Positions 1 through 15,014 of a stretch of 41,049 bases of DNA are shown here, piece after piece. Location: positions 1 to 41,049 of the forward strand of contig NZ_JSXC01000041.1 of the NCBI RefSeq assembly GCF_000803215.1. The letters run 5' to 3'. A model generated the notes under the pieces. It made no database searches. It saw only the letters and a program-made list of their open reading frames with translations, and had not been told where the DNA came from. The DNA is from Pectobacterium fontis (lineage in GTDB: Bacteria; Pseudomonadota; Gammaproteobacteria; Enterobacterales; Enterobacteriaceae). A program made the translations under genes and the position numbers. Numbering within the stretch: position 1 is the stretch's first letter; each line of letters starts with the position of its first letter.

Positions 1-3000
1 AAACAGCCCCGACGGTAGCGCAAAGTTCAGGCTGCCGCCCTGTGCCAGCGTCTGTGGCGGAACGGTGCCGGAGATCACGGGCGCATCGTTGATGTTACTC
101 ACCGCCAGTGTAGCCTGGACACTGTTGGTGGAAAACGCGCTGGTGCCTCCAGTCGTTGAGGTATCCGCTAGCCCTCTGGTCGCACCAGACGTCGCTGTGC
201 CACTGGTTTGATCCCACGCTCTGAAACCTAACGTTGCGGTTTCGCTGTTAGCGCCGTCCGGCACATAGCGAATCTGTGTCGTTGAACTGAGCAGCAACGC
301 CGACGAATTGGATACTGCACCGATGCTAAACCAGTCGGCACCGCTGTTCGTCGAGTATTGCCACGTCCCGTTACCGGTCAACGCCGTCAGCGCGATCCCA
401 CTAACGGCACCGCCGTCCACATCTGCATAACCTGTAGCACTCAACAACGACGACACCGCAGTGGTCGGTGAGACGGCGTTCTCCGTTGTGGCGGTCAGCG
501 TAACGGTGGTGCCGGAGACCACGGGTGCATCGTTGACCGGAATAATAGTGGATACTGACTGGTTACTGCTGACACTGTTCATCGAACCGTCATTAAAGGT
601 CCAGTTCAGGGTGACACTGGACGGCGGATTGTCGGAACTGTTCGCATAGGTTAGGGATTGCATCACGGCATCGACAATAGCCGAGGTCGCGTTGCTGTTG
701 AACGTCAGCACCAACGTTCCGTTTGCATTGGTGGTGACGCTGCCTACCGCTGTACCGTTGTACGTGAAATTTTGCCCCTGCGTCAGCGCTCCCAGTAAGC
801 CGCTGTTGCCAAATATATCATTGCTGTTGGTACCACCGTTGCGAACGAGGGTAATTGATGCGCCATTATAGTTACCAAGCCCGCTATTGAGCGTATCAAG
901 CTCAACATCGGCGACCGTGACATTGCTGTCTATCACCACGGCACTGCCATTTTCGGTATAGGTGGATCCGCCGTTCAGGTTGCTGAATGTCGGCGGGGTA
1001 TTGGCGGTTGAGGTTGTCGTGGCATCAACCTTGACCACACTGATCGTATTGTTACCTGCACTGTCCCTGGCCACCACGTACACATCATACGCAGTACTGG
1101 CGGCAAGGCCGGTCAAGGTAAAGTTAAAGTCGAATGGAGAAGAACCCAGCACCTGATTGCCCGAAGCAGGGGCAACGCCACCAGCGGCATTTTGCCCGGC
1201 GATCACTTGCGTCGCGGTTGGAGCACTGGCACCGTCAGCCACCACCACATAATACACATTGCCAGTTTCAGTGAGGCTGCCACTCAGCTTAAAACCGCCC
1301 GCGGTGGCGTTGGACACGCTAGGTGACTGGTCAAACGTAGGGGCGATATCATCCACCACCACCAACGACACTACTTTGTCATAGGTGGCGGCACCGTCAG
1401 ACACCTGGAGACGCACGGAATAGGTCCCGGCTGCCATGGTTGCAGCATTGACCGCTTTCAGCGTGTTGCCACTAATGGTGAACAGCGCGTTATCGGTACT
1501 GCCGCTGCCACTCACCAGACTGTAGGTAAACGCCGAGGAATCCACATCGGTCGCTGTCAGGGTGGCGACAGTGCCGTTGCTGCCGAGTGATTGCGCAAAG
1601 GCGGTGGCAGAGAGCGTAATATCGGTTGGTGCATCGTTCACCGCCGTCACGTTGAGCGTCATGGTGCCCACGTTGGCGGACGACGCGGTGCCATCGCTGA
1701 CCGTCCAGGTGAAGGCGGCGTAGCCCGCGCCGTTAGCGTTATCGGCAGGACGGAAGGTCAGTTTGTCGATATTAGCCGCGGTGACCACCGTACCATTGCC
1801 GATCAGCGTATCCCCTACGCCACGCACGCCGTCACCATTCACATCGATAAACAGTTCACCCGCTGTCGGTGCAGCCACGATAGTGATGGATTGCAGCGTG
1901 TCGCCGCTGTCCACATCACTAAAACCAAAATCCGTCGCGGAGAATGTCTGAGAGGTATCCTCATTGAATGTTTTGCTCACCGTTGTGTTGCTGATGATCG
2001 GCGCATTGTTGACCGATGGGACAATGGCTTTAACGTCAGAAATATCGAAATTATTGGTGCCGAAGTCAAAGGCGCCAAAGCCGTTGACGGAGGCGATCAC
2101 TACCTTGATGACATCGTTGGCTGAAGCTGACAACGCATTGTTTGAGGCATCGAGAAAGACGGAAAAATTGCTAAGGGTTATATCCGCATTTGCTGTGGCC
2201 GTCAGTGTTCCAGTGACCGTTGTATTATTAGCATAGGTAAAGGTCAGCGTAATGGTGTCTTCAAGAGAAGTACGGTAGCTGAAGCTGGTCAAGTCGAAGG
2301 TATAGCCCGACGCAATGGCGATGGTCAGCCTGGTGCCGTCACCGGTAGAATTGCTCCCACTATCTGGGAAGACGTTATAGTTGCTGCCGAGGTTATTGGC
2401 AAACGAATATCCATCGACCCCACTAAAGGTAATATCGATGCCAGTGACCGGTTTGGTGTAGGTCGCAGCGTTGCTGCTAAAGTCATTCGAGTCAAAGGAG
2501 ACGAGCGTCAGCAACTGGTTATAATCGCTGAACGCCAGTGCGTCAGCCTGTATCGCATCTGAACCGACGCGTTGTTCCAGTGTCCAGTTTCCGCCTTTAA
2601 CCGTATCGCCTGTCAGGTCGCTGGATGCGGCCACATCTGCTCCCGTTGCGGTAGCGATAGCATTGATAAAACTCATTCCCTCACCTGATGCCACCGAGCA
2701 TCCGTAAAGCAGAATGTCGCCATTTTCGGTTAATGCAGCGCCGAGCGTGCTCAAATCGCTTTGGCGTGACGCCACATTATCGGAGTCCAGCGTGATAGCC
2801 CCCAGATGGAGACGGCCTTCTGAACCATGACTGATGATATGGATGGTGTCATAGCCGCTGTGCGTCTTCGCCCACTCCGTCATTTGGCTCAGGCCGTCTG
2901 CGCTGCTATCTAACAGTACCACTTCTGTTCCTGAGGGCACTTGATTGAGCAGTGTCTGATAATCGGCTACCGAGGTATCGATGAAAACCACGTCTTTGGA

Positions 3001-3297
3001 CGATGTAGTCGGATCGCTTGCTACCGCCACAGTGGTGTCATCGGCGGCGTTATCACTAGAAGTATCGGTTTGGTGCGTGCTGTTTTCTGTGTGGCTGGCG
3101 GCTGTGGCAGTTTGAGCCGCGCTATCCTGTGTGGTCGTCGTTTGATCCGCAGTGGCCGCAATGGCTCCATCAAACAACATGCGCGCCTCAAGCGCATACC
3201 CTAATGGAGTATTGCTCGTCAGCGTTACAGCATGCGGGACGGTATTATGTTGCTTGTTTGATGGGTGACGATTTCTGAACAGATGGAGCCATAACAT
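1..3297 (-). CDS. Giant LEPR-XLL-like / DUF4347 repetitive surface protein, N-terminal 1099 residues (runs off left edge)
   Basis: One uninterrupted minus-strand frame starts with ATG at 3297, preceded by a GAGGG ribosome binding site, and leaves the window at base 1. No cleavable Sec signal is visible. Residues 34-44 contain LEARMLFDGA, close to the LEPR-XLL motif found near the start of very long surface proteins. A low-complexity Thr/Ser/Ala/Asp linker (about 48-100) follows. A DUF4347 domain (about 101-265) has an SHGSEG motif with His157 and YGCSVASGE with Cys200. After that come repeated beta-sandwich modules with NDAP boundaries (cadherin or Ig-like, VCBS-type), for example NAPIISNTTV, VNDAPTDITL and INDAPVISGT. 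The family is associated with large secreted adhesins. The C-terminus, and therefore any type I secretion signal, is outside the window. The export route is inferred from the neighbouring operon at 4940-9161. Confidence 0.88.
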   Translation of the reverse strand, partial: MLWLHLFRNRHPSNKQHNTVPHAVTLTSNTPLGYALEARMLFDGAIAATADQTTTTQDSAAQTATAASHTENSTHQTDTSSDNAADDTTVAVASDPTTSSKDVVFIDTSVADYQTLLNQVPSGTEVVLLDSSADGLSQMTEWAKTHSGYDTIHIISHGSEGRLHLGAITLDSDNVASRQSDLSTLGAALTENGDILLYGCSVASGEGMSFINAIATATGADVAASSDLTGDTVKGGNWTLEQRVGSDAIQADALAFSDYNQLLTLVSFDSNDFSSNAATYTKPVTGIDITFSGVDGYSFANNLGSNYNVFPDSGSNSTGDGTRLTIAIASGYTFDLTSFSYRTSLEDTITLTFTYANNTTVTGTLTATANADITLSNFSVFLDASNNALSASANDVIKVVIASVNGFGAFDFGTNNFDISDVKAIVPSVNNAPIISNTTVSKTFNEDTSQTFSATDFGFSDVDSGDTLQSITIVAAPTAGELFIDVNGDGVRGVGDTLIGNGTVVTAANIDKLTFRPADNANGAGYAAFTWTVSDGTASSANVGTMTLNVTAVNDAPTDITLSATAFAQSLGSNGTVATLTATDVDSSAFTYSLVSGSGSTDNALFTISGNTLKAVNAATMAAGTYSVRLQVSDGAATYDKVVSLVVVDDIAPTFDQSPSVSNATAGGFKLSGSLTETGNVYYVVVADGASAPTATQVIAGQNAAGGVAPASGNQVLGSSPFDFNFTLTGLAASTAYDVYVVARDSAGNNTISVVKVDATTTSTANTPPTFSNLNGGSTYTENGSAVVIDSNVTVADVELDTLNSGLGNYNGASITLVRNGGTNSNDIFGNSGLLGALTQGQNFTYNGTAVGSVTTNANGTLVLTFNSNATSAIVDAVMQSLTYANSSDNPPSSVTLNWTFNDGSMNSVSSNQSVSTIIPVNDAPVVSGTTVTLTATTENAVSPTTAVSSLLSATGYADVDGGAVSGIALTALTGNGTWQYSTNSGADWFSIGAVSNSSALLLSSTTQIRYVPDGANSETATLGFRAWDQTSGTATSGATRGLADTSTTGGTSAFSTNSVQATLAVSNINDAPVISGTVPPQTLAQGGSLNFALPSGLF

Positions 3298-3551
3298 AGA
3301 CAATACCCTCGAGACACAGAACACATTGCGATATTTACTCTTGCCACCAAGAAAAAGTCTTTTTAAACAAACAAATAGTGTTAATTAAGTGACAGTAGAT
3401 GATTAAAACATAGGTACAAGCGTTAAATTTATTGCCTTTTTGTATAAATAATTGTTTTTTACATTTTGTTCTTCTTTTTGGCGTATGGCGACGAAACTAC
3501 GCCACCATACGTAACGGTGAAACCCATTTTACTATCAGTCAGTTATGGCAA
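3298..3551. other. AT-rich intergenic leader of the giant protein gene, with a hairpin
   Basis: The spacer between the collar-domain gene and the giant protein gene is AT-rich. An inverted repeat CGTATGG / CCATACG (3482-3488 and 3505-3511) lies just after the collar-gene stop codon. It lacks a clear U-tract on either strand, so I call it only a hairpin. The promoter of the giant gene presumably lies in 3300-3450, but I could not identify convincing boxes. Confidence 0.35.
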
Positions 3552-4454
3552 TCAGTTAGGGTTGACAGGATAAAGACCTTGGGTGGCAATACACGCGGTA
3601 AGTACTAATGATGGATCCCTAACCTGTACTGCTACCGACACAGGAGTCACCACTGGCGCAGGCTGCGTGACATTCGCGTTTACGCTGACCGAACCCGTCA
3701 CTGGCAAAGTCAGCGGGCCCGTTGCATTCCCTGCTAACTGGCCGCCACTTGCGGTGCTGCTGATATTGCCCGTGGCGGTGCCGGTTACACTGCCATCCGG
3801 TCCTAGCTGCCTGTCATTGGTTGCACCAGCGGGTGCGTAGATTAATGCACTTGGACCGCCGACAGAAGTTAATAACGCTTTGTCAGTCAGGTTGATGTTT
3901 CTGCCAGTCGTGGTTGACGAGCCAATTTTTGCAATCCCAGTCACACTGAGGCTGGCTGCGGCATTAAACGGCAGATTGGTGATACTGCCGCTCAGCGGAA
4001 GGGATACTGAGGTGCTGGCAGCGTTCAACGAAAATGTTGCCGGATGAGTATGCGGGGGGATCTGTGGAGCAGTCAGTGTCACCGAACTGCTACCGGTTCC
4101 GACTGCAATTTCCTGACCAACCGTTTTCGCAACGGGGTATGCTGTGCTGTTAAACGTACCTGAGCCAACAACTGTTCGGCCCTGTAGGTTTGGTAAGGCG
4201 AACGTCGAGGGCGCGGTGCCGCCATATAGGTTGCCAATCAACGAATAAAGCGCCTGGTTACTGTTTGTATTTAGTGTGCGACCATCTGCAATTATGTAAC
4301 CTTCAGGACAATATTTGGTAGCCATGTAACACACGCTGCCAATGTATTGGCTACTTGGTTCGCTGCAGGCAAGTGCAGATTGTGGCAGGAAAAAACCGAC
4401 ACCCAACACAGCAGCAATAGCTGATTTGGCAAACAGACGTTGAACGCATTTCAT
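3552..4454 (-). CDS. Secreted protein with phage tail collar domain
   Basis: The protein has 300 residues from the ATG at 4454 (MKCVQRL). I chose this start because AAGGAG lies at good spacing from it; the ATG at 4460 and a longer frame to 4490 are possible. Residues 1-29 form a Sec signal ending in ALA before Cys30. A tail collar domain (about 37-100) shows CPEGYIIADGRTL and FALPNLQGRTVVGSG, as in microcystin-dependent MdpB-like proteins. The rest is Ser/Thr/Ala/Gly-rich and predicted beta, like short-tail-fibre material. No other phage gene is present, so it is not a prophage remnant. It lies between the giant DUF4347 protein gene and the HlyD/M50 operon on the same strand. It may be a co-exported partner or surface component, but its function is unknown. 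Confidence 0.85.
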   Translation of the reverse strand: MKCVQRLFAKSAIAAVLGVGFFLPQSALACSEPSSQYIGSVCYMATKYCPEGYIIADGRTLNTNSNQALYSLIGNLYGGTAPSTFALPNLQGRTVVGSGTFNSTAYPVAKTVGQEIAVGTGSSSVTLTAPQIPPHTHPATFSLNAASTSVSLPLSGSITNLPFNAAASLSVTGIAKIGSSTTTGRNINLTDKALLTSVGGPSALIYAPAGATNDRQLGPDGSVTGTATGNISSTASGGQLAGNATGPLTLPVTGSVSVNANVTQPAPVVTPVSVAVQVRDPSLVLTACIATQGLYPVNPN

Positions 4455-4939
4455 AAACATCTTCTCCTTGGAATGAGGGGAACTCCACATTGTGTGAAAT
4501 GTATCTGATGATTTTTATGCACGATCTTGAGACGCCTTACTTCGCTTGCTTATCAAATTGTAATTTTATGTAAACACCAGGAACAAAATTACACATAAAA
4601 ATCAAACTGGCAACAAGCTTTTGCATTGGCTGAAAAGAAAAAAAGTTTATTTTTTAACTTTTTGATTATTTTAAATTTTACTAATCAAAGTTTTTCTTAT
4701 TTGAGTTAAAGAAATGATGGAGATGCTGTGAAATTTGCGTTTTATCAGCGTAACTAAAGTCAGTGAATGATTTATTTGTTGCGGAGATGTGAAATGTTGC
4801 CAGTGCAATAGACAGGCAAGTGATCTTATTCAACATTAGAGAATTTTATTGTTTATGAAATGTACGGCACTTTTTCAATGTGGGGTATGGCCTGCTCCAG
4901 ATACCAGAAAGCAGGCATATATGCTGATGAATAAACTGG
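4455..4939. other. AT-rich intergenic region upstream of the collar-domain gene
   Basis: About 485 bases carry no credible gene. The stretch 4550-4720 is strikingly AT-rich, with A and T runs, compared with the flanking genes. That suits a promoter region and possibly H-NS binding (inference). A GCCTGCT / AGCAGGC inverted repeat (4890-4896 and 4910-4916) lies just past the M50 gene stop and could end or attenuate the upstream operon, but it has no U-tract. Confidence 0.4.
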
Positions 4940-7045
4940 CTAAAATCCACTCTCTCTAATACCCAGTGCAGCCACTTTGCGCCATAACGCCCCGAGTAGA
5001 GATTCTCTTTCTCCTTCGAGTATCACGCTGCCCCGAAGAGGTTGGGGCGGCAAGGCCTGCTTGTCCTGTATGACAAAACGGACGCGATACTGCGCTTGTA
5101 TCGGTTGGGGATGATTGTCCCGGTCGCGGCGTACCGCGATAGGCCCGTGGCGATCGGAGGCCAGCATTTCTTGTTGCAGGTAGGCTACACCGGTTGGAGC
5201 AATCTCTTTGAGTTCCACCGTAAGAGGGGGATAGGCGGGGTCGTCAGCAATAAACTGACCCGTCATGCCCGTTTTTGCCCGTTTGAGCGCATCTTCCGGT
5301 AGGTAGCCTTGTACTTTCCCTGCGCCTTGCTCCACCACGCGGAGTAGAGGCATATCCGTGACCAACCAGCGGCCTTCGGTCATACTGCGTACAATATCTC
5401 TCACTTCACCGTCATGCGGGGCGGTAATGGACAATCGTTGTCGCTGTGCTGACAGCCCTCGATAGCGAGCCAGCGATTGTGCCAGTTGACGGTCGATGAC
5501 CTGAATTTCACTGGCGGTTTCCTGACGTGTTGCGCCGCGCAGCAACCGTTGTTGCAGTATCGCGATTTGCTGACGTTCAATCGCCAGGCGGTAATCCAGA
5601 TCGGATGACGTTAATTCCAGTAAAACCTCACCCGTCTTGACTCGCTGGCCGTCAATCACATGCAGCGTTTTGACCTGTGCGGAAAGGGGCGCATAGAGTA
5701 CACCGACGTTTTCTGCTTCCAGTACGGCAGGAATACGCATGTTGCCGCGCCAGGGAAACAGCAAGAGCAGCAGTATGGCCGCCAGTATTAAGCCTGAACG
5801 TAGCAACTTTAAAGGATGAGCCGTTTTTCGCATGGACCACCAGATATGTATCTCTTTAACGATCGGCAGCACAATAAACCAGCCGATTTCCACCAACATC
5901 AGTGCAATACCGACAACCTTGATAAAAAAGTGATACACCACCAGTGCGATACCGAAAAAGAGAAAAAAGCGCCATACCCACGAGGCATATCCCCATATCA
6001 GCAGCTTGCGTTGCATGGCGGGTGACCAAACCTGTGGTGCCGCGCGACCATAGCCAAATAACGCCTCACGCAGTCGCCAGCGGCACAGAGTGTAGGCGCG
6101 TTCCTGTAGGTTCTCCACCCGCCAGAAATCACTCAGCAGAAAGTAGCCGTCAAAGCGCATTAAGGGATTGAGGTTAACGATCAGCGTCGTGACCCAGGTC
6201 ACGCTAGAGAGCATAAATGCGGCGGTTCGCATGGGGCCGTCGGGCAACAGTGACCAGGCTAACAGGGCGATGCAGGCCAGCATCAATTCAGCCAGAATAC
6301 CGCCAGCACTGATCAGCAATAGCGCTCTCCGGTCTTTCAATTTCCAGGCATCGGTAACATCGGTATAAAACAGGGGAAACAACACGATAAATGCCACGCC
6401 CATATTTTGCACCCGGCAACCTGCCCGCTTGGCCATAAAGGCGTGACCCAGTTCGTGCACGAATTTGGCGAAGACGAGTGCAACACCGAATGCTGCCATC
6501 CCCTGTAGGCTGAAAAGATGAGGAAAGGCATGGGTATAGCTGACCCAATCTCGGCTGACCAGAAAAGCGCCCAGTAACAGGATGATTGGGAGCGCGATGC
6601 GTAGAAAAGGCAGACCGTAGCGTGCCAGCCATGGCCAAGTGTGACTAAGCCAAGGATCTGGGCGCCATAGCGGGATACGGAAAAACAGGTACTGATGCAG
6701 CAGTGTTTTCCACAGACTGACACGAGATGCCAGCGCTTTAACGGCATAGCTGTGACGTTGCTTTGGATCGTTGGCGGCGATCAGGTCATGGCTGCGTAAA
6801 AAGTGCAGTAGCATCTCTAGATCTTTAACCTGCAACGGCAGGCCTGGCTCCCTATTGGCGGCTTCCAGCACCTGTTTGGGGTGGCGCAGCGGCCAGTGTC
6901 GCAACAAGCGTATTGCCGATGGCACGAGTTTAAAATAGCGCCCGGTGACCGGATCGACCAATACCCATTGCGGCGCGCCATCCAGGCCTGCCGCAGATTC
7001 TGTCAACTGTAGGTCGGTTCTTAGTGTGGGTAAAAACTCGCTCAT
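4940..7045 (-). CDS. PqqD-like / M50 site-2 protease / HlyD fusion membrane protein
   Basis: The protein has 701 residues in three parts. Residues 1-95 resemble a PqqD-like winged helix (WVLVDPVTGRYFKL, then helices), the fold used to recognise leader peptides. Residues about 145-430 are multi-spanning, with the M50 zinc motif HELGH (197-201) and the second ligand motif NPLMRFDGYF (293-302), so the metal site looks intact. Residues about 436-690 form a HlyD-type adaptor: a split biotinyl/lipoyl-like domain (VLEAENVGVLYAPLSAQV, then ITAPHDGEV) around a short coiled coil. Similar M50-HlyD proteins are annotated as peptide zinc metalloproteases, but the substrate here is unknown. The start ATG overlaps the stop of the upstream GAF-HlyD gene by 4 bases, so the two are coupled. 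It probably sits in the inner membrane with the adaptor part in the periplasm, and may process or export the giant protein or the collar protein (inference). Confidence 0.85.
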   Translation of the reverse strand: MSEFLPTLRTDLQLTESAAGLDGAPQWVLVDPVTGRYFKLVPSAIRLLRHWPLRHPKQVLEAANREPGLPLQVKDLEMLLHFLRSHDLIAANDPKQRHSYAVKALASRVSLWKTLLHQYLFFRIPLWRPDPWLSHTWPWLARYGLPFLRIALPIILLLGAFLVSRDWVSYTHAFPHLFSLQGMAAFGVALVFAKFVHELGHAFMAKRAGCRVQNMGVAFIVLFPLFYTDVTDAWKLKDRRALLLISAGGILAELMLACIALLAWSLLPDGPMRTAAFMLSSVTWVTTLIVNLNPLMRFDGYFLLSDFWRVENLQERAYTLCRWRLREALFGYGRAAPQVWSPAMQRKLLIWGYASWVWRFFLFFGIALVVYHFFIKVVGIALMLVEIGWFIVLPIVKEIHIWWSMRKTAHPLKLLRSGLILAAILLLLLFPWRGNMRIPAVLEAENVGVLYAPLSAQVKTLHVIDGQRVKTGEVLLELTSSDLDYRLAIERQQIAILQQRLLRGATRQETASEIQVIDRQLAQSLARYRGLSAQRQRLSITAPHDGEVRDIVRSMTEGRWLVTDMPLLRVVEQGAGKVQGYLPEDALKRAKTGMTGQFIADDPAYPPLTVELKEIAPTGVAYLQQEMLASDRHGPIAVRRDRDNHPQPIQAQYRVRFVIQDKQALPPQPLRGSVILEGERESLLGALWRKVAALGIRESGF

Positions 7046-8361
7046 AACCCCACCGATTGGCGTATTGCAGCAAGTGGACGACGAAACAGGTAGATCGCTA
7101 GTGGTACATACTCGCCGGATACCTTGGCGGTTCCGCGTAATCCGATTCGCGGAGGTTCTCCGGTAAAGCGTGCATCCAGACGATAGGCCAGATTACCGGC
7201 GGGGGTTTGCTCCGATTCATAAGCGATGCGTTCCAGCACCGCCGCATGTGGCGTCATTGGATCGCTGTCCAGAAAGAGCGTGATTGGCGCATCGGGTTCC
7301 AGATGGATGGCGTCGCCAACATCCAGCTCAATACGCAGCGCGACTGATGACGGATCGGCCATCTCCATCAAACGTTCCCCAGTGCGTACGGGTTTGCCTG
7401 TCCAGCGTTCAGCGTCGGCAAACACCGCGATACCGTCACGATCGGCACGAATTTCAGTGCGGCTCAACAAGGCATTGGCGTACTCATATTCAGTACGTTT
7501 TTGTGCCGTTTGCGCCGCAAGTAAATCCAGTCTTGCTTTGGAATCGGCATCCTGAAACGCACGTTGTGAATTGGCTCGGTGCTCTGCTTCGGCTACGTTC
7601 AGTGCTCTTTCAGCTACGTCTGCCTGCGCCTTCAGTGTGGTAGCGTCGAAGCGCACCAGAAGATCGCCTTTTCGCACGCGTTGATTTGGCTGAACAGCGA
7701 ATGCTTCAACGACACCATCCAGAGGGGCGGTGACCACCCGGCCGTTATATGGAATCACTTCGGCAGGGGCAAGTACGGACTGACGAACGGGTATAAACAA
7801 GCAGGCGAACGCGAGTAGGCAAGGGATCGCCAACTTCCACCGCCAACGTGTGCGTTGCCATGAGCGCTGTGGCTCCATCGCCAACCAGGCATGGCTATAT
7901 GCATGTGCAAGCTGCGCTATTAGTAATTGATCGGCATGTTGCCAGATGGATTCTCTGGCATACCAGATGCCACCAAACGTGTCTCCCTGGCGATCTTTCA
8001 GCGGCGACCACAGCACCTCGGGGGCCGATAGCGCCTGCCAGTCACTGCGGCTTTGCTGATCCAGCGACATTGCCGCCACTACCGCGCACTGTTCATGCTG
8101 TTGGTTGCTCTGCAACTGTGCACTGGCTCGTTCAACAAAGGCGACAAAGGGAGCGTGCGGTGCGGGTTGTGTTACACCCGTTACAGCACGCACTTTACCG
8201 TTAATCACGAGTGCGGCATGGCGAAACCCGAACAATTCCTGAGCATCGTTAACAATGCAATAGGCCAACTCTTCGATGTTGTGAGCCGATCGTGCCTGAC
8301 GCTCAATATCCAAAAAATGGGCAAAGATACGCTCGGAAGAAGGTTGAGGCTGTGTACTCAC
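7042..8361 (-). CDS. Membrane adaptor with cytosolic GAF-like domain and periplasmic HlyD part
   Basis: The protein has 439 residues. Residues 1-165 look like a GAF domain (FAHFLDIERQ, an LFGFRHAALVING core, WSPLKDRQGDTFGGIWY). A single membrane helix (about 177-191) follows, then a HlyD/membrane-fusion-protein portion. That portion has a lipoyl half-motif at about 205-240 (VTAPLDGVVEAFAVQPNQRVRKGD), a coiled coil, a second lipoyl half (IRADRDGIAVFAD) and beta-barrel domains to the end. The topology puts the GAF domain in the cytoplasm and the adaptor in the periplasm. It overlaps both neighbours by 4 bases (ATGA type), the middle gene of a coupled three-gene operon. A sensory or partner-binding GAF on a secretion adaptor is unusual. 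The transported substrate is not known. Confidence 0.84.
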   Translation of the reverse strand: MSTQPQPSSERIFAHFLDIERQARSAHNIEELAYCIVNDAQELFGFRHAALVINGKVRAVTGVTQPAPHAPFVAFVERASAQLQSNQQHEQCAVVAAMSLDQQSRSDWQALSAPEVLWSPLKDRQGDTFGGIWYARESIWQHADQLLIAQLAHAYSHAWLAMEPQRSWQRTRWRWKLAIPCLLAFACLFIPVRQSVLAPAEVIPYNGRVVTAPLDGVVEAFAVQPNQRVRKGDLLVRFDATTLKAQADVAERALNVAEAEHRANSQRAFQDADSKARLDLLAAQTAQKRTEYEYANALLSRTEIRADRDGIAVFADAERWTGKPVRTGERLMEMADPSSVALRIELDVGDAIHLEPDAPITLFLDSDPMTPHAAVLERIAYESEQTPAGNLAYRLDARFTGEPPRIGLRGTAKVSGEYVPLAIYLFRRPLAAIRQSVGL

Positions 8362-9161
8362 AGTTTCTCCGGAAAGTGTGCTGTGCCGCTCATACCGGCC
8401 ATCAGGCTGTTGTCTTTGCTTTCGATAACGCCAGTCAGGCTTAGCGTTTGGCTGCTTTCATCAATACGTGCGCCTAATCGGGATACGCTAGCCTGTAGCG
8501 GTTTACCGGTTTCATCTGGCGTAAACGTAAAGCTTAACCCAGGTTTTAATACTGACAGGAGTCGCGATGGTACGAGTAGGTTGATCTCTAAATGGCGATT
8601 ATTAACAATGTCGAGTATTGGCGCACCAAGACCGACACTCTCGTGTGTCTGGGCTCGCCGTTTGACGACTTGCCCGTCGAACGGTGCCAGCAGTCGGCAG
8701 CGATTGACCTGGATCTGATAGACCTGGCTTTCTGCCTGAGACTGCGCAAAGCGCGCGGCGGATAATGATACTGCGTGTCTTCCCACGGATTTCATTTGTG
8801 CCAGTTGCTGATTTTGGCTTAACTCTGCTTCTGCGGCGCGCATGGCGGCCTGAGCAGCCGCCAGTTGAGCCTGATAAATCGAACAGTCAAACCGCACCAA
8901 TAGATCGCCTTTCTTGAAAGACTCCCCTTCTCTAAACGGGAGTTCCACAATACGTCCAGCCAGATCGCTGGACAGCGTGGCTTGATCGACGGCGATCAAA
9001 ATTCCACGCGCCTGGCTGTCGGCGGATGCAGAAGGGGGAGTATCATGAGAGGACAACGTCAATAGCGGATCGTGAGTTTGGGCATGGACGTTAAACGTCA
9101 ATAGGCAAAAGGCCAGAGACGTAAAAGCGCGACGAAGTGCTGGGTGATTGAAACGATCCAC
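8358..9161 (-). CDS. Periplasmic HlyD/RND-type adaptor subunit
   Basis: The protein has 267 residues from a GTG at 9161. I preferred that start because it puts a clean Sec signal at the N-terminus (MDRFNHPALRRAF, a hydrophobic core, then VHA/QT at 27/28) and AAGG lies upstream. The frame stays open to a GTG at 9230, which would give 290 residues. The mature part is a compact membrane-fusion protein. It has a lipoyl half (LSSDLAGRIVELPFREGESFKKGD), a short alpha-hairpin, a second half (CRLLAPFDGQVVKRRAQTHE) and a beta-barrel domain. It is first in the operon with the GAF-HlyD and M50-HlyD genes. No inner-membrane pump or outer-membrane TolC-like channel is encoded in the window, so it must recruit a channel from elsewhere or from left of the window. 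Confidence 0.84.
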   Translation of the reverse strand: MDRFNHPALRRAFTSLAFCLLTFNVHAQTHDPLLTLSSHDTPPSASADSQARGILIAVDQATLSSDLAGRIVELPFREGESFKKGDLLVRFDCSIYQAQLAAAQAAMRAAEAELSQNQQLAQMKSVGRHAVSLSAARFAQSQAESQVYQIQVNRCRLLAPFDGQVVKRRAQTHESVGLGAPILDIVNNRHLEINLLVPSRLLSVLKPGLSFTFTPDETGKPLQASVSRLGARIDESSQTLSLTGVIESKDNSLMAGMSGTAHFPEKL

Positions 9162-9347
9162 ACTAACCTGCCTTAATTTCGTTGAGGTGCGTGACAAGTC
9201 AGAAAGCGTGGTGACTCCCTGAATTTTCACCCATTAATGGTTCCTATCTTGGAAGATATCATGGTACAGAATGGATCAAACTGACAATATCAATCGTGTT
9301 CCGTCGAACAATTCCTTCATGTATTTGTATTAATAAAAGGATTTACC
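9162..9347. promoter_or_regulatory. Divergent promoter region, adaptor operon / DUF4153 gene
   Basis: A short intergenic region separates the leftward three-gene adaptor operon from the rightward membrane-protein gene, so both promoters must lie here. The DUF4153 gene has a clear AAAGGA ribosome binding site just before its ATG at 9348. I could not assign -35/-10 boxes with confidence. Confidence 0.4.
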
Positions 9348-11000
9348 ATGCCTACCGCCAACGCCCTATCGTTAAAGTTTTATCTGGTTATTGGTCTGCT
9401 TCAGGGACTTTTATTTGTCACCGCTTTGGAAATGAAAGAGGGCATGTTTCAGACGTTGTTGATCGTGATGGCGGCGGTTGGCGGCATCAGTCTGCAATTG
9501 CAGAAATGTTCTCACTTTTTGAAAAAAGTAGGCGTGTGGTGTGGCGCGTTGACGGCGATGATAACGGCAGTCAGCGGTTGGCTTCTCTACGATAATGGGA
9601 AATCCTCGCTGCCCCCTTCCTGGATATTGTGTAGCATTCTCCTTGGGTATATCTGCTGTACTTTCATTAGCAGTTGGCCGAGCCGTGAAGGGCGATGGCC
9701 GTCTTATGACTCTCTCTGTAAACATGCCTGGATCAATATTTTTACCGTGCTATTAGCATGGCTCTTCGTTTTAGTCGTCGTGTTGTTGCTCGTACTGTGC
9801 GGTATGTTGTTCAGCATGCTGGGGTTCCCGCAGGTGGGTAAAGTTCTCGATCATCATCGGTTCTACATGCTACTTCTGCCGATAGTGTTTTCTATTGGCA
9901 TCTATATCGGAATGACGAAAGAAATTGTTGTCGGGTTGTTGCGTGGGATCCTGCTATCGGCCTGTCGTTTCCTCTTGCCGCTCAGTGCGCTGATCACGCT
10001 GCTTTTCGTCTTAACGCTGCCTTTTAGCGGCCTGGCACCGATATGGAGGACGGGGCATTCCACGGCCATTTTATTATGTCTGGTTGGCGTGAATATCTTT
10101 TTGATTAATTGCGCATCTCAGGACGATAACGATGCACGACCTTATCCTGCGGTGTTCCGTGGGTTGGTCAGTGCGAGTGTGCCCTGTTTGCCGATTCTTG
10201 TGGGATTGGCGGGATATTCCAGTTGGCTGCGTATTGAACAATACGGCCTGATGCCTTTCCGGTTTCAGGCGATCTTCGTGATAGCGGTCGTCATGCTTTA
10301 CAGCCTGGCTATGCTGTGGGCCGTTATTCGTCGCTCTGGTGTCTGGTTAAAGCCTCTACGGATGAGTAATCCGCTGCTCGCGGTTTTCACCTGTATTCTG
10401 ATGGTGTTGTTACATACTCCGGTGTTGAACCCAGAGGCATTCAGCGCAAGAAATCAGGTTCAGCGCCTGCTTAGCGGAAAGACGCCAATCGATACGTTTG
10501 ATCTGTGGGTGCTACGCGATGAACTGGGGAGAGCGGGTAGGCAACAATGGGTTTGGCTGGTTGAAGAACTGGCGCAAGATCGAATACTGGATACCGCAGG
10601 ACGGCAGGCATTGCGTGAACTGTTGCAGGGGAAATCCGTTAAAATTCGTCCTGTTCAGAGCGAATGGGTGGGGCCATCAGAAGAAGGTATTGAAGGCCTG
10701 TTGCAAGGAGATAATCTGGGTAATCAATGCAGGGAAGCGACTTGTCTGCTTTTCGCGATTGACTTGACCAGTGACGGTCATAATGAAGTGCTCATTTTCC
10801 CTAAATCGGGTTGGGGGAGTGGTGGAAAGATCCTCGTCCGTGATGACAAAGGACAATGGCAAATTGCGGCCAGCATATATGGCACGATGAGTATGGAACA
10901 GTTGATCGCGTCGGTAACGGACGGAAAAATTGAGGCCGTTGAGCCGCGTTTCAAGACAATCAGAATCGGTGGCACCGATATGGAGATCTCGTATCCCTGA
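9348..11000 (+). CDS. DUF4153-family multi-spanning membrane protein
   Basis: The protein has 550 residues. The first ~370 are mostly hydrophobic, with about ten predicted membrane helices (for example LKFYLVIGLLQGLLF, WLFVLVVVLLLVLCGMLF and LLPIVFSIGIYIG). The final ~170 are hydrophilic and contain LLSGKTPIDTFDLWVLRDELGRAGRQQW and VRDDKGQWQIAASIYG. I recognise the general layout of DUF4153 proteins, which are common in Enterobacterales and have no established function. AAAGGA precedes the ATG. It is transcribed away from the HlyD operon and towards ahpC, but ahpC has its own spacer, so I regard it as a single-gene unit. No catalytic motif is visible. Confidence 0.8.
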   Translation: MPTANALSLKFYLVIGLLQGLLFVTALEMKEGMFQTLLIVMAAVGGISLQLQKCSHFLKKVGVWCGALTAMITAVSGWLLYDNGKSSLPPSWILCSILLGYICCTFISSWPSREGRWPSYDSLCKHAWINIFTVLLAWLFVLVVVLLLVLCGMLFSMLGFPQVGKVLDHHRFYMLLLPIVFSIGIYIGMTKEIVVGLLRGILLSACRFLLPLSALITLLFVLTLPFSGLAPIWRTGHSTAILLCLVGVNIFLINCASQDDNDARPYPAVFRGLVSASVPCLPILVGLAGYSSWLRIEQYGLMPFRFQAIFVIAVVMLYSLAMLWAVIRRSGVWLKPLRMSNPLLAVFTCILMVLLHTPVLNPEAFSARNQVQRLLSGKTPIDTFDLWVLRDELGRAGRQQWVWLVEELAQDRILDTAGRQALRELLQGKSVKIRPVQSEWVGPSEEGIEGLLQGDNLGNQCREATCLLFAIDLTSDGHNEVLIFPKSGWGSGGKILVRDDKGQWQIAASIYGTMSMEQLIASVTDGKIEAVEPRFKTIRIGGTDMEISYP

Positions 11001-11048
11001 TTGCGCATTACGTTAGGTATTGCTTATTGATTCGATAAAGATAACAGA

Positions 11049-11078
11049 TTGGTGATAACGATCACATTTCTGTACTTT
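11049..11078 (+). promoter_or_regulatory. Probable ahpC promoter
   Basis: TTGGTG (11049-11054) and TACTTT (11073-11078) are separated by 18 bases and lie just upstream of ahpC. Two GATA-starting repeats 20 bases apart (11034 and 11054) overlap and precede the -35. ahpC is an OxyR target in E. coli, so an OxyR site is expected here, but I could not match the full OxyR consensus convincingly. Confidence 0.4.
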
Positions 11079-11110
11079 AGCCACATACGAAAACACATGA
11101 GGATAAAGTG

Positions 11111-11674
11111 ATGTCAGTAATCAATACCCAAGTTAAACCATTCAAAAACATGGCGTTCAAAGACGGTCAATTCATCGAAGTAACGGAGAAGAATATCGAA
11201 GGAAAATGGAGCGTATTCTTCTTCTATCCGGCTGACTTTACGTTTGTCTGCCCGACCGAACTGGGTGATGTTGCTGACTACTACGACGAATTCCAACAGC
11301 GTGGCGTGGAAATCTACTCTGTGTCTACCGACACCCATTTCACGCACAAAGCGTGGCACAGCAGCTCTGAAACCATTGGCAAAATCAAATACACCATGAT
11401 CGGTGACCCAACGGGCCAACTGACACGTAACTTTGAAAACATGCGTGAAGCAGAAGGTCTGGCTGACCGTGGTACGTTTATCGTTGACCCACAGGGCATC
11501 ATCCAGGCTGTGGAAATCACGGCAGAAGGGATTGGTCGCGATGCTTCCGATCTGCTGCGTAAAGTTAAAGCGGCTCAATACGTTGCTTCTCATCCGGGCG
11601 AAGTATGCCCAGCCAAGTGGAAAGAGGGCGAGGCTACGCTGGCACCGTCTTTGGATCTGGTTGGTAAAATCTAA
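11111..11674 (+). CDS. ahpC: Alkyl hydroperoxide reductase subunit C (2-Cys peroxiredoxin)
   Basis: The protein has 187 residues, the usual length, and is nearly identical in layout to E. coli AhpC. Peroxidatic Cys47 lies in [12 protein letters not shown] and resolving Cys166 in GEVCPAKW near the C-terminus. It reduces H2O2, organic peroxides and peroxynitrite in the cytoplasm and is re-reduced by AhpF, encoded just downstream. I chose the ATG at 11111 ([11 protein letters not shown]) over the preceding GTG at 11108 because it matches the family start. The gene is followed by a terminator-like hairpin before ahpF, which would set ahpC expression above ahpF. Confidence 0.98.
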
Positions 11675-11705
11675 GCTAACACCAGGAAAAACAGCAATGT
11701 TTTGT

Positions 11706-11729
11706 CGGGTGCCTTGCACCCGATTTTTT
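11706..11729 (+). terminator. Attenuator-type terminator between ahpC and ahpF
   Basis: CGGGTGC (11706-11712) pairs with GCACCCG (11716-11722) around a three-base CTT loop and is followed by ATTTTTT. It lies 31 bases after the ahpC stop. It would release most transcripts after the peroxiredoxin gene and allow partial readthrough into ahpF. Confidence 0.75.
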
Positions 11730-11810
11730 GTGGTTCGCACTTTTCGCGACCGTGCCGCATCTTGTTCGATTTCTACCTTTGTACCCACTTGCCTAATTAA
11801 GGGATGACCC

Positions 11811-13373
11811 ATGCTCGACAATACGATGAAAGTCCAGTTGAAAGCCTATCTGGAAAAATTAACCAAACCTGTTGAGTTGATTGCGACTCTGGATGACTCT
11901 GCGAAATCCGCGGAAGTCAGAACGTTGCTGACGGAAATTGCTGAGCTGTCCGATCGGGTCAGTGTTATTGAGAATAACAGCCTGTCAGTACGCAAACCGT
12001 CATTCCTGATTACCAACCCAGATTCCCAAAGTGGCCCGCGTTTTGCCGGTGCGCCGATGGGACATGAATTTACTTCCTTAATTCTGGCGCTATTGCAGGT
12101 GGGCGGTCACCCGTCGAAAGAAGCAAAAGAATTACTCGATCAAATCCGCCATCTTGATGGTTCCTTCCATTTTGAGACCTATTACTCATTGTCCTGCCAT
12201 AACTGCCCGGATGTGGTGCAGGCGCTGAATTTAATGGCGGTGTTGAATCCGAATATCACTCATACCGCGATTGACGGCGGCGTGTTTCAGGATGAGATCC
12301 AAAGCCGTAATGTCATGGGCGTTCCTACCGTTTTCCTGAATGGTGAGCATTTCAGTCAGGGGCGAACCAGCCTTGCGGAGATTGTGACGAAAATCGATAC
12401 TGGCGCGGGCGCTAAACAGGTTGAGAAGCTGAATCAGCGTGACGTCTATGATGTGTTAATCATCGGTAGCGGCCCGGCGGGAGCAGCCGCAGCAGTCTAT
12501 TCTGCGCGCAAAGGTATTCGTACTGGCTTGGTCGGCGAACGCTTTGGCGGCCAGGTATTGGATACCGTCGATATCGAAAACTACATTTCCGTGCCGAAAA
12601 CAGAAGGCGCCAAACTGGCGACGGCGCTGAAGAGCCATGTTGATGACTATGATGTGGATGTCATCGACGCACAGAGTGCAGAAGCCTTAATTCCTGGCGG
12701 CGAACCGGGTAAACCGCATCAGATCATTACCGTATCCGGCGCGACGCTGAAAGCACGTAGCGTGATCATCGCGACGGGCGCACGCTGGAGAAACATGAAT
12801 GTCCCCGGTGAAGATCAATACCGTACGCGCGGCGTCACGTACTGCCCGCACTGTGATGGCCCGCTGTTCAAAGGCAAGAGCGTCGCGGTGATTGGCGGCG
12901 GGAACTCTGGTGTGGAAGCGGCTATCGATCTGGCTGGCGTGGTGAAACATGTGACGCTGCTGGAATTTGCACCAGAGCTGAAAGCGGATTCCGTATTGCA
13001 GGATAAAGTCCGTAGTCTGCCAAACGTTGACATCATTCTGAATGCGCAAACCACGGAAGTGAAAGGCGATGGACAGAAGGTGACGGGGCTGAGCTACAAA
13101 GATCGCATGACCGATACGCTGCACGATTTAGCGCTGGAAGGGATCTTTGTACAGATTGGCCTGCTGCCTAACACGCACTGGCTGGAAGGCACGGTTGCCA
13201 GAAACCGCATCGGTGAAATTGAGATTGATGCCAAGTGTGAAACCAGCGTGAAAGGCGTCTTTGCTGCCGGCGACTGTACGACGGTGCCGTACAAGCAGAT
13301 CATTATCGCGACAGGGGAAGGCGCAAAAGCATCATTGAGTGCGTTTGATTACCTGATCAGAACCCGCGCATAG
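11811..13373 (+). CDS. ahpF: Alkyl hydroperoxide reductase subunit F (NADH:peroxiredoxin reductase)
   Basis: The protein has 520 residues, against about 521 in E. coli. The N-terminal double thioredoxin-fold domain carries the Cys129-His-Asn-Cys132 active site (SCHNCPD). The thioredoxin-reductase-like part has the FAD-binding [10 protein letters not shown] motif (219-228), the redox pair Cys345-Pro-His-Cys348 (YCPHCDG), a nucleotide-binding GGGNSG, and the closing [18 protein letters not shown] motif. It passes electrons from NADH to AhpC. It shares a transcription unit with ahpC across the attenuator hairpin. The start [17 protein letters not shown] matches the family. Confidence 0.98.
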
Positions 13374-13384
13374 CATTAACCTGT

Positions 13385-13411
13385 GGGGGAAAATCGATGA
13401 TTTCCCCCTTT
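13385..13411 (+). terminator. Hairpin after ahpF (first)
   Basis: GGGGGAAA (13385-13392) pairs with TTTCCCCC (13401-13408), followed by a short TTT. It lies 12 bases beyond the ahpF stop and is probably the first of two tandem terminators. Confidence 0.6.
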
Positions 13412-13439
13412 GTTGCTCTGGCGATGAGCTTAACTTTCC

Positions 13440-13482
13440 ACGCAGCGATCTCTCATAAAAAGAGACATCGCTGCGTTTTTTG
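13440..13482 (+). terminator. Strong intrinsic terminator after ahpF (second)
   Basis: A 15-base arm (ACGCAGCGATCTCTC, 13440-13454) pairs with one mismatch to 13462-13476 around a short A-rich loop and runs into a T-tract. It insulates ahpCF from the DnaA-box region and from convergent queG. Confidence 0.8.
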
Positions 13483-13668
13483 TTTTCGATCGTAAAAATT
13501 GGATCTCAGCCCTTGCCAAGTGGCGATAACAAATCCATAATGCTGGCCGCTCTGTGCTATTGCCCGTTTTTACTATCTACAACGCACCGTATTACGAGCG
13601 CTAACATTACCTCAATCCACATCATTTTTTATCAGTTAATACAAAACGTCATATTCTTTTTAACAGAC

Positions 13669-13677
13669 TTATCCACA
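13669..13677 (+). promoter_or_regulatory. Perfect DnaA box 1
   Basis: TTATCCACA, an exact match to the high-affinity DnaA consensus TTATNCACA, in AT-rich DNA. Confidence 0.75.
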
Positions 13678-13828
13678 GATTGTTTGTTGGCGATTTATTA
13701 ATCATGCTATGTGATTGATAAAAGACGCCATGGTATCTTATTGATATTTATTCATAAAATTTAGTTATAAAATGTTATAACGATCGCTTGTACTTTTTGT
13801 GACAGTTGATTGGCAACGGTTTTTTTAT

Positions 13829-13837
13829 TTATCCACA
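13829..13837 (+). promoter_or_regulatory. Perfect DnaA box 2
   Basis: TTATCCACA, the same orientation as box 1 and 160 bases from it, just before the queG stop codon region. Together with the weaker boxes it makes a cluster. Confidence 0.75.
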
Positions 13838-13874
13838 GCGTGTGCGACAAACCGATGACAACCGTTTGAACGGC

Positions 13875-15014
13875 TCATGCATCGCGCGGTAATCCTTTCT
13901 CTACTGCACGAATAAGTCGTTTTTTCTGAGTGGATTGGACGTCAATTTCCAGTGACGCTCGACGTTCCAACTGCTGACGAATCGCCCAGTGGATATGTTC
14001 ATCCAACAGTTCGCTGTCACCCAGACGGGCTTGCAGTGCGAGTACGATGCTATCCTGATAAGGGGCATTTCCCAGCGCGACGGCAATATTGCGTAGCCAG
14101 CGGAGATGACCGATGCGCCTTATCGGCGACCCTTCCGTGATCCGCAGAAATTTCTCTTCATTCCAGCCGAATAGCGCCACCAGCTCTGGCGTATGCAGAG
14201 CGGCGCGTGGGCTGAAATCCGCCTCGTCGGTAAGCTGTGAAAACCGATTCCATGGACAAATAAGCTGACAGTCATCGCAGCCATAGATGCGATTGCCCAT
14301 GAGTGGACGGAATTCTTCAGGGATCGCCCCTTCCAATTCAATGGTTAGGTAGGAAATGCAGCGGCGGGCATCGACAGTATACGGGGCAACGATCGCGCCT
14401 GTGGGGCAGGTGGTCATGCAGGCGACACATCGGCCACACTGTTCCTCCTGTGGTTGATCGACAGGCAGAGGTAAATCGATCAACAGTTCACCAAGAAAGA
14501 ACCAGGAACCCGCCTCTCTGTTCAGAATGAGTGAATGTTTGCCAACCCAGCCAAGTCCGGCTTTCGCAGCCAAAGGACGCTCCATAATCGGTGCGGAATC
14601 GACGAAGGGGCGAAAATTCAACTCACCGCAGTATGCCTGAATCTGCTCGCCGAGTTTTTTCAGACGCTGGCGCAATAGCTTATGGTAGTCACGGCCCAGC
14701 GCATAACGGCTAACATAGCCGAGCTGTGGATTCTTTAACGTACTGGCGAAGGCAGCCTTGGCGGGCAAATAGTTCATACGCACACTGATGACACGCAGCG
14801 TACCGGGCAACAATTCGTGTGGACGCGCTCGCAGCATACCGTGGCGCGCCATCCAGTCCATTTCCCCGTGGTATTGCTTATCCAGCCAGGCCTGAAGCCG
14901 AGGCTCTTCTGTGGACAAATCGGTATCGCAGATACCGACCTGCTGGAACCCCAATGCCTGTCCCCATTGTTTGATATGTTGCGCTAATTCATTGAGATCG
15001 TAGGGGTATGACAT
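13875..15014 (-). CDS. queG: Epoxyqueuosine reductase
   Basis: The protein has 379 residues, the E. coli length. It catalyses the last step of queuosine biosynthesis, reducing epoxyqueuosine to queuosine at the tRNA wobble position, using cobalamin and two [4Fe-4S] clusters. Cluster cysteines are visible at 193, 196, 199 and 203 (CGRCVACMTTCPTGA) and at 219, 246, 249 and 253 (CDDCQLICPWN). The N-terminal half holds the cobalamin-binding domain, with FVDSAP around Asp139. It is divergent from nnr, as in E. coli, where queG also borders datA. Confidence 0.97.
   Translation of the reverse strand: MSYPYDLNELAQHIKQWGQALGFQQVGICDTDLSTEEPRLQAWLDKQYHGEMDWMARHGMLRARPHELLPGTLRVISVRMNYLPAKAAFASTLKNPQLGYVSRYALGRDYHKLLRQRLKKLGEQIQAYCGELNFRPFVDSAPIMERPLAAKAGLGWVGKHSLILNREAGSWFFLGELLIDLPLPVDQPQEEQCGRCVACMTTCPTGAIVAPYTVDARRCISYLTIELEGAIPEEFRPLMGNRIYGCDDCQLICPWNRFSQLTDEADFSPRAALHTPELVALFGWNEEKFLRITEGSPIRRIGHLRWLRNIAVALGNAPYQDSIVLALQARLGDSELLDEHIHWAIRQQLERRASLEIDVQSTQKKRLIRAVEKGLPRDA

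Follow-up and report, generated by a model that had tools for sequence, protein, structure and literature searches.

The window analysed here, 41,049 bases of Pectobacterium fontis DNA that make up the entire contig C43 of a 4.15 Mb genome in 105 contigs, carries most of an operon encoding a giant protein, a collar-domain protein, an M50-HlyD fusion, a GAF-HlyD protein, a HlyD adaptor and an OEP channel. This operon recurs widely, and giants with an N-terminal LEPR-type leader track M50-HlyD across genomes. On balance it is probable that the operon encodes a dedicated, leader-guided exporter of LEPR-XLL giants, which resembles type I secretion, has no ABC transporter and is built on a different inner-membrane core. 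That the giant is recognized, cut and exported by this system is what we infer from the associations described below.

LEPR-leader giants and M50-HlyD occur in the same genomes

The leader was searched for in 369 gammaproteobacterial genomes with LEPR-8K, a short 24-position model. At E ≤ 1e-3 it matched 28 genomes, 26 of which carry M50-HlyD, compared with 57/369 overall (p = 7e-22 in a Fisher test that treats genomes as independent, which they are not). The 26 genomes span 19 family codes by our own count; the two that match without M50-HlyD are G173 and G309, and at 1e-2 co-occurrence was 30/34. The main figure is limited to E ≤ 1e-3 because at E ≤ 1 LEPR-8K also matches controls (7/14, together with 170/369 genomes). 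Similarly, 35 of the 46 genomes with DUF4347, a domain of the window's giant, have M50-HlyD (p = 1.7e-24). The reverse direction was weaker, with LEPR matches in 26/57 M50-HlyD genomes at 1e-3 and in 36/57 at 0.04. The original prediction, made from the window alone, had called for a survey of such co-occurrence; seen from the giants, the association holds nearly always for LEPR and mostly for DUF4347, and seen from M50-HlyD it is weaker. The condition named as refuting it, adaptor genes commonly found without the giant, has a mixed outcome.

At 1e-30, M50-HlyD was found in 57/369 genomes of this class-level sample and in 85/299 phylum-level genomes. At least 578 of the 595 stretches with the pattern in named genomes encode relatives, which include several from Pectobacterium, a genus of soft-rot bacteria of plants; 80 named loci were kept, mostly from Pseudomonas, the others from Kosakonia, Pantoea, Azospirillum, Nitrosomonas and further genera. 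Outside the host genome the class sample gave 64 match rows; a diverse set of 60 stretches, some of them extended, represents 61 of these, G281, G353 and a second G425 row being left out. A LEPR-type giant was found in 62/80 named loci, that of L178 being spurious, and in 16/60 diverse loci, and a large open reading frame (ORF) cut at its 5' end in 13 more named and 15 more diverse loci. No LEPR giant was in view in 5 named and 29 diverse loci, often on short contigs. For four cut loci (G203, G204, G336 and G374) the same contig has a long frame with the motif, of 14,112 codons in G336. The motif pattern used for these loci was widened after relatives had been seen; it was absent from 653 other ORFs of at least 250 amino acids (aa), and two non-giant ORFs (L178, L183) carry it by chance.

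The functional link between these genes, first drawn from their adjacency, now goes beyond it: this co-occurrence and the intact operons of relatives support a single conserved module for export and processing.

A six-gene operon split by a contig end

Five minus-strand ORFs cluster at positions 1-9230 in the list of window ORFs, which was drawn up to base 14,000. The features are as follows, residues of the giant being counted from a start at 3297; this start is the probable one, agreeing better with relatives than does the GTG at 3324.

1..3324, minus strand: giant protein, putative cargo, of which the N-terminal 1108 aa are visible, the ORF being open at the contig end and the gene longer; DUF4347 at 1.1e-52 (Pfam)
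3169..3192, minus strand: leader motif LEARMLFD (LEPR-XLL-like), residues 36-43 of the giant; conserved columns in 31 giants
2515..2991, minus strand: DUF4347 domain (PF14252), candidate caspase-like cysteine protease with His 157 and Cys 200
3552..4490, minus strand: collar-domain protein, 312 aa, with a hydrophobic segment near the N-terminus (24-42); PF07484 at 2.8e-19
4940..7045, minus strand: fusion of a PqqD/RRE-like region, an M50 intramembrane protease and HlyD, 701 aa, with HELGH at 197 and FDG at 298; Pfam HlyD_3 and Peptidase_M50
6779..6967, minus strand: PqqD/RRE-like region of M50-HlyD, about residues 27-89; hhalign of the family profile against PqqD
7042..8361, minus strand: GAF-HlyD protein, 439 aa, with a single hydrophobic segment (174-192); Pfam HlyD_3, profile-profile GAF match
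8358..9230, minus strand: HlyD-type periplasmic adaptor, 290 aa; HlyD_3, HlyD_D23, TIGR01730 above cut-off

The ORF list and the Pfam domains bear out the five adjacent genes described originally, as well as the coupling of the three adaptor genes by 4-base overlaps, which read GTGA and ATGA. The three HlyD-bearing proteins are indeed of different architecture, HlyD_3 being found in the 701-, 439- and 290-aa proteins and M50 in the first of them. The GAF domain proposed for the 439-aa protein has no direct Pfam match; it is supported by a profile-profile match of this region (93.8%, E 1.7e-7) to a region of a distant branch of the family; of two members of that branch scanned with Pfam, one has this region assigned to GAF.

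The sixth gene lies on another contig. At the end of contig C64, the C-terminal part of a giant (677 aa, open at the contig end) is followed by a 510-aa OEP-type gene, in the same order as in relatives; the two contigs were left unjoined. This OEP protein is 86% identical to that of a relative, whose copy, used as query, scores 5.9e-36 against Pfam OEP. The original prediction had noted that neither an ABC or RND pump nor TolC was present. No ABC gene was seen, in agreement with it; an OEP channel does belong to the operon. Leftward of the window, where a standard type I set with an RTX-type signal would have refuted the original prediction, the OEP gene was found, and neither an ABC gene nor an RTX array was seen. 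An Rfam scan at gathering scores gave no match, and a scan of viral_contigs with the M50-HlyD protein gave 14 pattern matches, none of them a relative.

The operon in relatives and a second module in the same genome

Eleven window-type loci were inspected gene by gene (G004, G009, G010, G011, G012, G013, G020, G021, G023, G038 and G068; ORF lists with a minimum length of 120 or 150 aa). Where the operon is undecayed and the stretch reaches the OEP side, the OEP gene was present (9/9). The giant was complete in 7 of the 11 loci (1881-3220 aa); incomplete giants include those of G012 (apparently frame-broken), G009 (cut by the contig) and G020 (partly in view). The gene order in G020 is giant-OEP-HlyD-GAF-M50-collar. 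No ABC or RND gene was found within the inspected operons, and on this evidence and that of C64 a hidden ABC or RND gene immediately left of the window was rejected. Of the 61 named loci in which M50 and the giant are so ordered, 51 have a collar-like ORF between them, which frequently runs in the other direction; in G038 the collar gene is duplicated in tandem (L043:10348-12591).

In a sample of the genus, the window type was present in 19/25 genomes, with a decayed copy in one, G021. In this genome the giant, HlyD, GAF-HlyD and M50-HlyD genes of the decayed copy are all broken, and the OEP and collar frames are still open. Remnants were also seen in G052 (L057 and L070 for these observations). 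Across relatives the window-type operon occupies several different chromosomal sites. Its neighbours, which we assign by our own reading of the sequences, are presumably ahpC-like at the window, rpiA-like in G009 and lepA-like in G023; non-ribosomal peptide synthetase-like neighbours were likewise read in G004, G010, G011 and G012, and on C64, flanking the OEP gene (L346:1-3859).

The host genome contains a second complete module, on contig C15, with a 2660-aa giant, an OEP gene (Pfam OEP), HlyD, GAF-HlyD and M50-HlyD. Its M50-HlyD is 40% identical to that of the window, and its giant begins near VLEPRMMFDAA. This type was found in 25/25 genomes of the genus sample. Six C15-type loci were inspected (G000, G002, G013, G021, G043 and G046; the C15-type stretches of G020 and G004, L060, L061, L072 and L073, fall outside this gene-by-gene inspection), and all six have OEP, HlyD, GAF-HlyD, M50-HlyD and adjoining giant sequence, of which the C-terminal part alone is in view except in G000, and which is in pieces in G021. 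The neighbours of the C15 module are, as we read them, Tad/Flp-type pilus genes; the giant (L007:12538-18999) starts about 80 bases after them on the same strand, so that joint transcription is possible.

Some modules have further genes beside them. In G046, a gene pair for a C39-like ABC exporter and HlyD is oriented convergently with M50-HlyD (L064:5651-9081), at a place where the other C15-type loci have what we take to be a RhiE-like gene. In three Pseudomonas loci (L126, L136 and L138) an ABC-like gene, identified by pattern only, and a gene for a 455-aa HlyD- or GAF-HlyD-like protein are found upstream of the module. In L204 (12466-17312) a hybrid histidine kinase and a GGDEF/EAL response regulator adjoin the module, and similar-looking long ORFs are present in the G405, G390 and G418 stretches.

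A leader on the giant and a candidate recognition domain on M50-HlyD

In an alignment of 31 giants (A3), L36, E37, R39, F42 and D43 are invariant, and no other column is invariant before F105. The residue that follows the motif core is D in 66/66 window-type loci and S or A in 9/9 GAF2-type loci, counts that ignore relatedness; the OEP-carrying intermediates L205 and L207 have D. The likeness of the window's giant to LEPR-XLL proteins, proposed originally, is seen at the level of this motif: members of NF012209 similarly carry an N-terminal LExRxx(F/L) on giant repeat proteins. It does not extend to the model itself, as the window's protein, with LEARMLFD, gave no match to NF012209 in its first 175 aa at E ≤ 10. 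The C15 giant scored 15.3 bits in one scan and 18.1 in another, for a cut-off of 17. A simple hydropathy scan revealed no hydrophobic segment in the visible 1108 aa of the window's giant, in line with the earlier statement that it has no Sec signal.

The DUF4347 domain of this giant scores 178.6-184.2 bits (cut-off 24.6). Among the 31 giants its Cys is invariant and its His is present in at least 90%. In the 30 complete giants with DUF4347 (the apparently frame-broken L118 and L148 being left out) this Cys is always present, and by our own count it is the sole Cys after the leader in 27, the exceptions being L149, G068 and G416. Giants without DUF4347, those of C15, G320, G150 and G390, have 0, 0, 1 and 0 Cys, respectively. 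As far as sequence can tell, this pattern fits DUF4347 as, perhaps, a cysteine protease. An hhalign comparison of DUF4347 with CHAT (15.4%, score 28.6; best of 60 shuffles 18.6, reversed 18.8) is only suggestive of a similarity. Against the PDB, the giant N-terminus gave weak matches to designed TIM barrels and to 9qpe_G, a chain named DUF4347 domain-containing protein. DUF4347 was considered as the defining mark of the cargo and rejected: the C15 giant has no DUF4347 match, and neither have 22 of the 57 M50-HlyD genomes. The leader is more universal to the cargo than DUF4347. At the other end, a C-terminal tail (..QQL......LA.AL) is common to Pectobacterium- and Pseudomonas-type giants; G320 and G418 show none clearly. 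This conserved tail is non-RTX, and each of 30 giants has 0 to 2 RTX-like patterns.

The N-terminus of M50-HlyD resembles PqqD. In single hhalign comparisons the window type aligned at 95.3% (E 2.2e-8) and the distant type at 96.7% (E 3.3e-10), and reversed and 60 column-shuffled controls reached at most 1.4%. Pfam PqqD was above cut-off in 2/6 M50-HlyD genomes of a 56-genome sample (G106 and G149, of the distant type) and below it in G150. The protease motifs are well kept: HExxH and DG are both present in 91/91 window-type M50 proteins, and in the distant type HExxH is found in 37/37 and both motifs in 30/37. The NCBIfam model of the daptide protease, NF041824, matches the window protein over residues 26-391 (4.6e-40; 137.9 for a cut-off of 300). 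The original idea that M50-HlyD recognizes and cuts the giant thereby gains a candidate recognition domain.

A SecA-like partner in the distant branch

In the diverse set, a SecA-like protein is encoded beside M50 in 21/39 distant-type loci and in 0/21 window-type loci; extension of the stretches adds one distant-type locus, G405. Pfam assigns SecA_DEAD (6.1e-99 and 6.4e-68), SecA_PP_bind and P-loop_SecA to the two SecA-like proteins scanned. Twenty of these proteins are 26-42% identical to the SecA of the same genome, in alignments that end by residue 655 of 900, and all 20 carry a Walker-A-like motif and a DE(A/V)D motif. At the genome level, a second SecA_DEAD match at 1e-20 was found in 11/16 distant-type (type B) genomes, 0/16 window-type (type A) genomes, three of which (G474, G504, G628) were typed by score alone, and 0/10 genomes without M50-HlyD. 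A SecA-like protein as a universal part of the system was rejected on these window-type loci (0/21) and genomes (0/16). The host genome has one strong SecA_DEAD match, in a 910-aa frame on C17. It also has a short second match (G000:C34:13748-13948, model positions 98-164 of 290, 31.4 bits for a cut-off of 24.6) in a 735-aa frame. Near the module of G416, an ORF of about 3,140 aa contains a SecA-like match, which is weak (about 4787-14206 of the joined stretch).

Discussion

The arrangement of these genes suggests how a dedicated exporter might work. In the cytoplasm, the PqqD/RRE-like domain of M50-HlyD would bind the leader, LExRxxFD, at the N-terminus of the giant, and the intact HExxH...DG intramembrane site would remove it. 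The passenger would then cross in a single step, by way of the HlyD adaptors and the OEP channel, export being possibly gated by the GAF domain in response to an unspecified signal. Outside, DUF4347, perhaps a caspase-like cysteine protease, may trim or release the giant. In the related branch the SecA-like ATPase is the likely motor. Because the window-type operon contains no SecA-like gene, this variant must borrow a motor, housekeeping SecA being the first suspect, or use another force. In a broader form, the leader logic of ribosomally synthesized and post-translationally modified peptides would have been reused for secretion: an RRE-fused intramembrane protease would form the core of a one-step exporter, recognizing and cutting an LExRxx(F/L)[D/S] leader, with a HlyD-OEP conduit, and powered by a SecA-like protein in one branch and not in the other. 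We put this forward tentatively, as a possibility that falls somewhat short of probable.

Several observations weigh against a dedicated exporter of this kind. First, 31/57 M50-HlyD genomes have no LEPR match at 1e-3 (21/57 at 0.04), the 24-position model being weak for the motif type of the window; 11/46 DUF4347 genomes have no M50-HlyD; and the 29/60 diverse loci with neither a LEPR giant nor a cut 5' end include several long stretches (e.g. L204, L206, L211, L230 and L232). M50-HlyD may therefore stand without a neighbouring giant in part of the sample. Second, Pfam PqqD scores 14.6 for the window protein, below its cut-off of 23.4, and no PqqD was matched in a PDB search with the profile of the M50-HlyD N-terminus (A2). 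Third, the window-type operon contains no motor gene. Finally, the conserved C-terminal tail of many giants could equally be a signal of the kind used by type I secretion systems (T1SSs).

In another reading, housekeeping SecA and SecYEG carry the giant across the inner membrane, and M50-HlyD and GAF-HlyD only anchor it, cut it and release it into the OEP channel. The SecA-like partner of the sister branch and the single strong SecA match in 16/16 window-type genomes at 1e-20 are consistent with it. However, the visible part of the giant has no hydrophobic segment, and the SecA-like proteins, aligning to about residue 655 of a 900-aa SecA, seem to be missing the C-terminal part, which holds the two-helix finger of SecA. 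We consider this reading rather doubtful.

Ordinary type I secretion, in which an ABC ATPase encoded elsewhere would pair with the adaptors and the OEP channel and read the C-terminal tail, M50 merely processing the giant, is in our view unlikely. Like type I systems (HlyB-HlyD-TolC; LapA/MRP-type adhesins), the window system has an adaptor, an OEP channel, a giant Cys-poor repeat protein and a conserved C-terminal tail, common to the Pectobacterium- and Pseudomonas-type giants. Several T1SSs exist in Pectobacterium, among which the account in PMC6963963 names PrtDEF, HasA and MRP, none described there as this operon. ABC genes do adjoin the modules of G046, L126, L136 and L138, but they are rare neighbours outside the operon, and the inspected operons have none. 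Unlike type I systems, the window system has an N-terminal leader and an M50 fusion and no evident RTX array, and a type I route leaves the invariant leader, the RRE-like domain and the SecA-like partner unexplained.

The operon might instead serve signalling, M50 carrying out regulated intramembrane proteolysis, GAF sensing, and the giant being a neighbour or a sensor. GAF and M50 domains are common in signalling, and a hybrid kinase and response regulator adjoin the L204 module; however, the operon holds three HlyD modules and an OEP channel and is tied genome-wide to giants, and we regard this as highly improbable. That an adhesin gene lies by chance beside an unrelated exporter, as the several chromosomal sites and the many M50-HlyD loci with no giant in view might suggest, has next to no probability and is rejected on the paralogous C15 module and on a co-occurrence that extends over 19 family codes, the joint decay of four genes in G021 arguing against it as well.

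The hardware of this system has been described before, so that the original claim of no published description was wrong in this respect. A locus encoding a secondary SecA_DEAD protein, Peptidase_M50-HlyD, GAF-HlyD and HlyD, sometimes with OEP and with no ABC, was reported by Kamneva, Poudel and Ward (2015; PMC4452313), who proposed that the M50 protein is the pore and SecA_DEAD the ATPase, and called its role completely unknown. In the main text of that paper the words 'lepr' and 'giant' do not occur and the cargo is unnamed. As described there, the locus is like the window in encoding M50-HlyD, GAF-HlyD and HlyD together; the window variant differs in having no SecA_DEAD in the operon and in having its own OEP and collar genes. 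To the 2015 description the present work adds a link to a cargo, the leader of that cargo, the RRE-like domain, and a variant that has OEP and collar genes and no SecA gene. The open-access literature searched, papers citing PMC4452313 lying outside that search, gave no account of the export route of LEPR-XLL giants. A parallel for the proposed leader removal is found in daptides: their leader, with the motif ELExMEAP, is considered to be cut off by an intramembrane site-2 protease that bears an RRE at its N-terminus (PMC10036551). This short conserved N-terminal motif is comparable to that of the window system; the daptide RRE-peptidase, MpaP, differs in acting in peptide maturation, and its description there mentions no HlyD domain.

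LEPR-XLL giants include very large bacterial proteins, with open frames of up to 14,112 codons, and the predicted SecA_DEAD/M50/HlyD machine has been without a cargo since 2015. Joining the two gives each a testable partner, in the form of a leader, a recognition domain and a protease, and offers a secretion route that would operate without an ABC transporter.

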